Of a stretch of DNA of 64,000 nucleotides, positions 48,160-49,361 are shown in pieces (within the stretch, counting starts at the first letter, position 1; every line of letters starts with the position of its first letter). The stretch is from contig NZ_CP134053.1 in the NCBI RefSeq assembly GCF_031583065.1, forward strand, positions 6,117,001 to 6,181,000, read 5' to 3'. This DNA is from Streptomyces sp. CGMCC 4.7035 (GTDB lineage Bacteria; Actinomycetota; Actinomycetes; Streptomycetales; Streptomycetaceae). The notes beneath the pieces are model-generated. The model did no database searches, had not been told where the DNA came from, and was given only the letters and a program-made list of their open reading frames with translations. Made by a program: the position numbers and the translations under genes.

Positions 48160-48306
48160 AGGTGCAGTCTGCCTGCGGTGGTGTCCTGCTGCTCGCTTGC
48201 GTGGCGCCCAGGGGTGACGTGGGCCAGGGGTGGGTCGCGCCACTCGACGCTGACGCGGTGCCGCTGCGCACGACTGCCCGCGACTGGGGCAGCTACCGAA
48301 CACTTG

Positions 48307-48340
48307 CCCAGTGCTCCATCCTTCTGGATGGAGCACTGGG
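48307..48340. repeat. 15-bp perfect hairpin, possible left end of a miniature IS
   Basis: CCCAGTGCTCCATCC (48307-48321) and GGATGGAGCACTGGG (48326-48340) form a perfect stem with loop TTCT. It may be a terminator, or the left-end hairpin of the relic element whose right end is at 48565. Upstream to 48160 I see no gene. Confidence 0.55.
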
Positions 48341-48430
48341 CATCCTTGCCTCAGCGGCCCGGAGGGCCGCGGAGTCATGGCAGAATCGCCTTGTCCGACA
48401 ACGGAGTTGCCGGACCTACCGCCGGACGGG

Positions 48431-48556
48431 CGGGACGTGAAGCCTGTGGAGACCTTGTCAGACCACCCTCACGGGCGGCAGGGGTCGATGAAGCAGGAAC
48501 CCGAGGGAGCACCGCGAAGCGGTGCAGACCGGAATCACCTGCGTTTACGCAGGTGA
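48431..48556 (+). pseudogene. tnpB: 3' remnant of an IS200/IS605-type tnpB gene
   Basis: The frame reading DVKPVETLSDHPHG, then GSMKQEPEGAP, then NHLRLRR before a TGA at 48554 looks like the C-terminal tail of Streptomyces TnpB proteins, which carry DVKPVE and KQEP motifs and end inside the right-end hairpin. No RuvC domain or zinc finger remains and there is no tnpA. It is a non-coding fossil of an RNA-guided nuclease gene. Recognition is from memory and not from a search. Confidence 0.6.
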
Positions 48557-48565
48557 GGACGTCAA
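48481..48565 (+). ncRNA. Omega-RNA-like scaffold and right end of a relic IS200/IS605 element
   Basis: The segment contains GCACCGC-GAA-GCGGTGC (48509-48525), then GGAATCACCTGCG-TTTA-CGCAGGTG (hairpin 48536-48555) and AGGACGTCAA ending at 48565. GAATCAC-stem-TTTA-stem-GTGAGG...TCAA is the layout of the 3' end of TnpB omega-RNAs such as that of ISDra2. Any guide would begin at 48566, directly upstream of the cobS start at 48579. Whether it is transcribed is unknown; no tnpB is in the window to use it. Confidence 0.6.
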
Positions 48566-48578
48566 GTACTCTGCGCCG

Positions 48579-49361
48579 GTGTCCAAGATCCCACCGCTCC
48601 ACGGCCTCCGTTTCGCCTTCGGCACCCTCACCGTGCTGCCCGTCCGGGTGACCCGGTGGGACCGGGAAGCCGCGCGGGGCGGGATGTTGTCGGCGCCCCT
48701 CGCCGGGGTGGTCGTCGGTGGGATCGCCGCCTCGGTCGGAGTACTCCTGCTTCTGTCGGGTGCCGGGGCGCTGCTCGCCGCCGTCGCCTCCGCCGCGGTA
48801 CCCGCGATGCTCACCCGGGGTCTGCACCTGGACGGTCTGGCCGACACCGCCGACGGGCTCGGGAGCGGCAAACCCGCCGAGGACGCGCTGCGGATCATGA
48901 AGCAGTCGGACATCGGACCGTTCGGTGTGATCACACTGCTGTTCGTGCTGCTCGCGCAGGTGGCGGCGCTCGCGGAGGCCTACGGCGACTCCTGGGCGCG
49001 CGGTGCGCTGGCCGCCGTCGTCTCGGCCACCGCCGCCCGGCTGGCCCTGACCCTGGCCGCGCGCGACGGGGTACCGGCGGCCCGGCCCGAGGGGCTGGGG
49101 GCCGCGGTCGCGGGAGTGGTTCCGGTGGGCGGTGCCCTGGCGGTGGCGGCCGCCGTCACCGTGGGCGCGGCCGCCGGGGGCATGCTCTCCGGGGCGTACG
49201 AGGCCGTCCGTACGGCGGCCGCGGTGGTGGTCGCGGTCGCGGCCGGGGACCTGCTGTCGCGGCACTGCACCCGTCGCTTCGGCGGGGTGACGGGCGATGT
49301 GTTCGGCGCTCTCGCGGAGACCGCGGCGACGACCGCGCTGGTGGTGATGTCGCTCGGGTGA
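48579..49361 (+). CDS. cobS: Adenosylcobinamide-GDP ribazoletransferase
   Basis: 260 residues from GTG 48579. It joins adenosylcobinamide-GDP and alpha-ribazole to give adenosylcobalamin. HGLRFAFGTLTVLPVRVTRWDREAA is the family N-terminus; TRGLHLDGLADTADGLGSG with the Asp-rich loop and MKQSDIGPFGVITLL are CobS signatures. About six hydrophobic helices. No ribosome site is visible before GTG: the 13 bp upstream are the end of the relic IS element, which may have replaced the native leader. Confidence 0.94.
   Translation: MSKIPPLHGLRFAFGTLTVLPVRVTRWDREAARGGMLSAPLAGVVVGGIAASVGVLLLLSGAGALLAAVASAAVPAMLTRGLHLDGLADTADGLGSGKPAEDALRIMKQSDIGPFGVITLLFVLLAQVAALAEAYGDSWARGALAAVVSATAARLALTLAARDGVPAARPEGLGAAVAGVVPVGGALAVAAAVTVGAAAGGMLSGAYEAVRTAAAVVVAVAAGDLLSRHCTRRFGGVTGDVFGALAETAATTALVVMSLG

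Follow-up and report, generated by a model that had tools for sequence, protein, structure and literature searches.

A protein-less IS200/IS605-type element upstream of cobS in Streptomyces and its predicted omega-RNA

Just upstream of cobS, the window (the whole 64,000-nucleotide stretch of Streptomyces sp. CGMCC 4.7035 DNA that was analysed) contains a 269 bp element without a recognisable protein gene. The interpretation that we consider probable from sequence comparison is that this element is a PATE, as defined in the accessible part of PMC3119063, with a complete omega-RNA scaffold, which would be moved by TnpA in trans and would in turn guide a resident TnpB in trans. Established at the level of sequence are the limits and the target of the element, its multiplication in this genome and its relationship, at either end, to the resident tnpB elements, as well as the fact that its RNA part is homologous to theirs and has a selected fold.

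Limits, copies and target site of the element

Besides fragments, a nucleotide search of the 8.09-Mb source genome revealed seven other nearly complete copies with 77-97% identity. When brought into a common orientation and aligned, the eight full copies (269-272 bp) have abrupt ends and unrelated flanks, and they are preceded by GCTAC in seven cases and by GCTAT in the eighth (copy L008). The sharp common ends and the preceding pentanucleotide therefore set the limits of the element (Table 1). The left limit lies ten bases upstream of the left-end hairpin. An earlier note on this DNA had taken that hairpin, a perfect palindrome of 15 bp, for the possible left end of an element of about 260 bp; the hairpin is indeed there, but the element starts at 48297 and measures 269 bp.

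Table 1. Features of the element and of the adjacent cobS start; positions are those of the window
Feature	Position	Strand	Basis
Presumed TnpA target and TnpB TAM (flank GCTAC)	48292..48296	+	
Complete non-autonomous IS200/IS605-type element, no recognisable protein gene	48297..48565	+	8 full copies
Left-end hairpin, perfect 15-bp palindrome in the cobS copy	48307..48340	+	alignment of copies
5' hairpin of the standalone RNA, not belonging to the left or right end	48394..48414	+	
Predicted omega-RNA (guide RNA) scaffold, about 152 nt	48414..48565	+	model R1, 169 bits (window copy is in the R1 training set)
RAGATH-18-like core of the omega-RNA	48443..48499	+	Rfam RF03064, 29.4 bits
Second omega-RNA hairpin	48509..48525	+	compensatory changes
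Right-end hairpin, GGAA directly before, GGACGTCAA after	48535..48556	+	compensatory changes
Right terminus TCAA	48562..48565	+	common to 8 copies and 7 tnpB elements
Predicted guide (16-20 nt), flanking cobS promoter and start sequence	48566..48585	+	TnpB guide position as given in the accessible part of PMC8612924
TACTCT, -10-like box of the probably leaderless cobS promoter	48567..48572	+	
cobS (cobalamin synthase) reading frame	48579..49361	+	Pfam CobS, 154.8 bits, E 4.5e-45; tblastn relatives

As in IS200/IS605 insertions, the target is not duplicated, no repeat being found after any of the eight copies, and subterminal hairpins are present at both the left and the right end. The three reading frames that overlap the element gave no Pfam match, and with 269 bp it is too short to encode a Y1 TnpA; it was therefore filed as a non-autonomous derivative of IS200/IS605. 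Its near-terminal palindromes, the lack of target duplication, the length insufficient for a transposase, the IS605-type-related ends and the absence of terminal inverted repeats, the last judged by eye, are those of a PATE. The earlier note had described an IS200/IS605-type element without tnpA or RuvC domain, either a miniature element or a fossil. Type and non-autonomy are borne out by the copies, by the ends and by the kinship with resident tnpB elements described below, and no such domain was detected. The miniature element stands, whereas a lone relic is at odds with eight full copies in one genome.

One of the other copies (L005, around 1026743, minus strand) seems to have inserted directly before the TGA stop of a gene. 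Its first element base is T, not C, and the frame, read by eye as GAG GCG AGC TAC TGA, still ends there.

A TnpB elsewhere in the host had also been supposed, and the TnpB domain PF07282 was found at 13 places in the genome (E<=0.001). Seven of these (L019-L025) end in GACC...GAARCAGGAAGCC...hairpin...GARTC-hairpin-...GCAAGTCAA, and in all seven tnpB elements the left junction is GCTAC/CGG, of which GCTAC/CG is common with the protein-less element. The left-end layout CAGTGC-stem-TTCA-stem-GTGAAG is likewise shared by the element family and the tnpB elements. Copy L020 of tnpB interrupts a frame (LPDGY/DTRI, read by eye) exactly after GGC TAC, so that the target and the absence of a duplication can be seen in the sequence itself. 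A Y1 TnpA was found just once in the genome, beside the tnpB of L024 (147 bits with the IS200/IS605 transposase model, cut-off 55). Over 400 residues, the L019 TnpB can be aligned with the solved TnpB chains 8h1j and 8bf8, which we take to be ISDra2 TnpB. All seven resident TnpBs contain what are presumably the D, E and D motifs of RuvC; in three of the proteins (L020, L021 and L022) additional residues, LPQTPSGG..., follow immediately after the first aspartate motif of RuvC.

At its left end the cobS copy differs from the other seven full copies, in which the hairpin is imperfect, with TTCA and a different 3' flank (GGTGAAGGG or close variants). The perfect palindrome is unique to the cobS copy among the eight in the genome: the loop has changed from TTCA to TTCT and the 3' flank has been altered jointly with it, the ordinary left-end stem corresponding to 48314-48333. 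This joint change looks as if it had arisen by template switching within the hairpin. The cobS copy may be a poor substrate for TnpA and may hence have become fixed in place with its RNA intact.

The RNA part and the conservation of its fold

The right end consists of GAATC, the hairpin TCACCTGCG-TTTA-CGCAGGTGA and, at the terminus, GTCAA, and the same layout is found in the resident tnpB elements. A covariance model, R1, was trained on protein-less copies only, including seven of the eight in the genome. In the source genome R1 finds the eight elements at 160-171 bits and all seven tnpB tails L019-L025 at 61-79 bits (E 5e-15 to 6e-11), together with one truncated copy and weaker fragments below. 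The element thus contains an RNA part homologous to the tnpB 3' end and right end which, as in an omega-RNA, finishes at the element terminus. The earlier note had seen an omega-RNA-like 3' end with a resemblance to TnpB tails, and this part of it holds in detail: all hairpins are where it had placed them, including that at 48509-48525, and the frame with DVKPVE...MKQEP is present and stops in the last hairpin. We infer that a resident TnpB recognises the element RNA, and this recognition is putative as the two sets of RNAs differ to the extent given by their scores.

Homology to a tnpB tail could also be that of a functionless leftover in an element of which only the ends matter and which is simply moved by TnpA. 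PATEs that retain part of a tnpB tail had been described prior to the discovery of guide RNAs (PMC3119063 and PMC7290912, each in its accessible part). Of the alternatives this one survives best, and we nevertheless consider it unlikely. The fold of the window RNA is 3.9 SD better than that of shuffled sequences (z -3.9), none of 200 shuffles being as good. Alignment A1 comprised 22 protein-less RNAs: seven of the eight genome copies (L002, near-identical, was omitted) and 15 of the 29 loci L114-L142, the omitted ones being L115, L118 and L122 (match short of the right end or interrupted), L132-L134, L137 and L139 (partial matches) and six tnpB-linked loci; alignment A3 omitted L121. In the 22 RNAs 36 pairs are supported, with 95.7% of cells paired, and 14 of the 36 have changes on both sides. 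Covariation is 0.278, compared with 0.149 after shuffling (0 of 500 shuffles reached the observed value) and with at most 0.103 for slid structures, a comparison that favours the proposed structures since they were derived from the same sequences. Six of the 14 double-change pairs belong to the right-end hairpin, where they make up 6 of 9 pairs. TnpA, too, requires this hairpin, in the form of DNA, so that the covariation of the hairpin is uninformative about RNA. The other eight are divided between the core and the second hairpin, the latter having compensatory changes in 4 of its 6 pairs and 99.2% of cells paired. The 5' hairpin has nine pairs, six of them with double changes (a number reached by 4 of 500 shuffles), and a covariation of 0.328 against 0.219 in shuffles (0 of 500); in 10 of 21 sequences one pair (columns 18-31) is not formed. 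Pairing is thus preserved by double changes in three parts that TnpA is not expected to need, namely the core and the second and 5' hairpins, which argues against a mere leftover.

The same is suggested by the pattern of conservation. The RNA part is kept in loci L125 and L127-L131, whose 5' halves do not align with that of the window, and the 5' hairpin is kept where the remaining 5' half fails to align. Conservation is lower in segment 48-100 of the element than in the RNA part (0.70 vs 0.78, identities from 10 of the 16 full-length copies). In a dead RNA changes would be expected to be even. Among 16 full-length relatives, however, 12 of the 44 columns that are conserved in 23 TnpB-linked RNAs (TnpB upstream in 23 of 23) vary, compared with 41 of the 53 other columns (Fisher p 8e-7), and in seven loci with other 5' halves the corresponding counts are 12/44 and 34/53 (p 5e-4). 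Sites conserved in TnpB-linked RNAs are thus spared in the protein-less copies, as expected if some TnpB still reads the RNA. The column test does not tell which TnpB this is, and some of the shared constraint could be mimicked if protein-less copies had arisen repeatedly from tnpB elements. Two observations fit the leftover: the elements co-occur with TnpA no less closely than with TnpB (see below), and a consensus scan of 48200-48700 detected no sigma-70-like promoter, nor did inspection by eye reveal a convincing promoter for a standalone RNA.

The Rfam comparison to which the earlier note had pointed did not place the element in a known family. No family reaches its gathering score on it, the relevant match being RAGATH-18 with 29.4 bits (gathering score 44.9), a score reached at none of ten places in the source genome; at E<=10 RAGATH-18 also matches 5 of 14 control genomes, none over the cut-off. 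As far as the accessible part of PMC11061315 describes it, the RAGATH-18 reRNA of IS607 TnpB has a similar core, CCUGUGGAG ... GAUGAAGCAGGAA, but the match here stays below the gathering score and the host element is IS200/IS605-like. RAGATH-18-like cores with 25-31 bits, below 44.9, recur in guide RNAs of IS200/IS605-type TnpB, at 48443-48499 of the window and in L009-L011, L017 and L135. A kink-turn core may be common to the guide RNAs of IS200/IS605-type and IS607 TnpBs. Matches to H19_1, IRES_Bip (the lowest E-value of the Rfam table, 0.0026) and sR10 lay in other places, did not reach the gathering scores of these families and were regarded as chance. Sub-threshold HgcC (RF00062) matches of 24-27 bits fall on TnpB tails (L135 1488-1625, L136 1534-1661, L141 1454-1579 and L142 1508-1635), and HgcC itself may therefore represent a guide RNA of TnpB; a paper naming both HgcC and TnpB was not found in the open literature searched.

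Insertion at cobS and distribution of the family

The cobS GTG is located 13 bases beyond the end of the element, and the predicted guide runs into cobS, as had been proposed earlier. In the 80 cobS loci examined, out of 286 relatives, the element is absent throughout (one of them, L069, has less than 200 bp upstream), contrary to the refuting case named in the note, the same DNA at cobS in all relatives. Among these loci the best match to the left flank is the cobS locus of Streptomyces sp. TP-A0356, without the element and with flanks of 88% and 84%. TAnnnT occurs 5-9 nt upstream of ATG, GTG or TTG in 67 of 75 anchored loci (5 of the 80 had no anchor, and the codons counted are start-like); in 100 shuffles this layout was found on average 2.1 times and at most 6 times. 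From this layout cobS of Streptomyces, including 48567-48581 of the window, looks leaderless. A single base separates the end of the element from the retained TACTCT box. The earlier note had the native ribosome site replaced by the element; since the cobS relatives show a leaderless layout and the element sits upstream of the kept box, no ribosome site was replaced, and what the insertion displaced is the upstream part of the cobS promoter.

One could imagine that the element is kept at cobS for control, either through a -35-like TTTACG in its right end or through guide RNA and TnpB acting on the cobS promoter. TTTACG (48544-48549), in the right hairpin, is indeed spaced 17 nt from TACTCT, a -10-like box conserved in the relatives, but the consensus scan did not score a promoter there, the other copies have different neighbours, and the guide match at the occupied site follows GTCAA, without the presumed TAM CTAC, which makes such a role very improbable. 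An IS607-type element with a RAGATH-18 guide RNA, which the RAGATH-18-like core might suggest as RAGATH-18 is reported only with IS607 TnpB in the accessible part of PMC11061315, is scarcely credible: the base 3' of the right end, which is fixed in IS607 according to the accessible part of PMC10711439, is G, T, C, G, T, A, T and C in the eight copies, the transposase beside the tnpB of L024 is an IS200-type Y1 enzyme, and the TnpB of L019 scores 362 bits with IS200_TnpB and 220 with IS607_TnpB (both under the curated cut-offs, 425 and 350).

The earlier note had treated the element as a single one and proposed a search of Streptomyces genomes; besides the seven additional copies in its own genome, relatives were found in other genomes of the genus. 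A DNA match at E<=1e-3 is present in 52 of 295 genomes, with the own genome included, tnpB tails and fragments counted and the best two candidates per genome scored. With R1 and under stricter filters, 30 of 147 genomes of the order have a match at E<=1e-12, and matches above 130 bits occur in 5 of the 147, all of the window's genus. The element search of plasmids gave no match, and that of phages a single one, covering element bases 123-206, under a 'transposase' gene of Saccharomonospora phage PIS 136.

R1 was applied to 30 genomes, 18 chosen for an element-type match (hand-picked from the best DNA matches and including types with other 5' halves) and 12 without a match (low list numbers). 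At E<=1e-6 it found 108 places, 66 directly behind a TnpB match and 42 without one, the linkage being judged among the TnpB matches listed, that is those near the RNA match by eye and a few more. Twenty-nine of the 42 exceed 100 bits, the other 13 (below 100 bits) being uncertain, and at all 24 that were checked of these 29 no TnpB match lay within 1.5 kb. In a genome of another family of the order (G295), a 102-bit guide RNA stands behind a TnpB sequence (L225), the highest R1 score among the TnpB-linked RNAs checked; this lineage is a possible parent of the standalone RNAs.

At thresholds of 1e-12 and 1e-6, TnpA was found in 15 of the 18 element-bearing genomes and in 2 of the 12 without elements, TnpB in 17 of 18 and 5 of 12, respectively. 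One element-bearing genome (G215) has neither protein at these thresholds, G251 has no TnpA and a single TnpB frame of 138 aa only, and G007 has no TnpA. Because the association with TnpA is at least as strong, co-occurrence does not show dependence on TnpB, and it was dropped as a proof of such dependence.

Proposed mechanism, related systems and meaning

Protein-less elements of similar build have been described. According to the accessible part of PMC3119063, PATEs of Haloquadratum walsbyi such as HqIRS71 likewise have palindromes close to the termini and IS605-type-related ends, lack terminal inverted repeats and do not duplicate the target, and HqIRS71 includes part of the C-terminal coding region, as the element here does; unlike the present family they are archaeal, and that part of the paper proposes no RNA role for them. 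The PATE-like element of Halanaerobium hydrogeniformans, as far as PMC7290912 is accessible, is also alike, with about 271 nt, a left-end hairpin, the last 58 nt of tnpB, the whole right end and no transposase. It is, however, one such sequence and is described there as ends only, whereas here there are eight copies with relatives elsewhere and a fold tested for selection. The reRNA or omega-RNA of ISDra2 likewise comprises about 150 nt, derived from the 3' end of tnpB together with the right end, and has a flank-derived guide (PMC8612924, accessible part); in contrast to it, the RNA described here stands alone, with its own 5' hairpin and no tnpB in the element.

In ISDra2, single-stranded DNA adjacent to the target is excised by TnpA; the empty site is cut by TnpB, the RNA of which ends in about 16 nt of flanking sequence, and repair of this site restores the element (PMC8612924, accessible part). 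For the element at cobS we propose that the Y1 TnpA of an autonomous copy would move it as single-stranded DNA, from CTAC to CTAC. Excision would restore CTAC-GTACTCTGCGCCGGTG..., a match to the guide at the 3' end of the element's own RNA, which would itself end in GTACTCTGCGCCGGTG. A TnpB encoded by another element would use this RNA in trans and cut the empty site, and repair from a sister copy would put the element back, so that the element would be a parasite of both TnpA and TnpB. Where the element is in place, the bases before the guide match are GTCAA instead of CTAC, and the element should therefore escape cutting. TnpB can make a guide from its own messenger by 5' processing, as stated in the accessible part of PMC10278001. 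A standalone RNA would need a 5' end of its own, and the extra 5' hairpin may serve that. We regard as evenly balanced the wider proposition that Streptomyces harbours guide-only mobile elements which persist and spread by means of their own selected guide RNA, in which the 5' hairpin replaces processing of the tnpB messenger, and which, as double parasites of TnpA and TnpB, hijack the TnpBs of other elements to defend the insertion site.

TnpB is usually viewed as serving the element by which it is encoded. Standalone omega-RNAs of IscB, with no nuclease gene adjacent and used in trans, are said to have been described by Altae-Tran in 2021; here, by contrast, the RNA is cargo of a defined mobile element. 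PATEs with a retained tnpB tail are already known. A PATE with a selected guide RNA was not found reported in the open literature, outside which Meers 2023 and Altae-Tran 2021 lie. If protein-less elements do carry selected guide RNAs, the TnpB nuclease would be a shared resource exploited by cheaters and guide RNAs could turn into free-standing genes, which would be a plausible intermediate on the way from transposon nucleases to systems whose guide loci are separate. Since each of the copies in the genome comes with a predicted guide and an empty site of its own, the proposal is directly testable.
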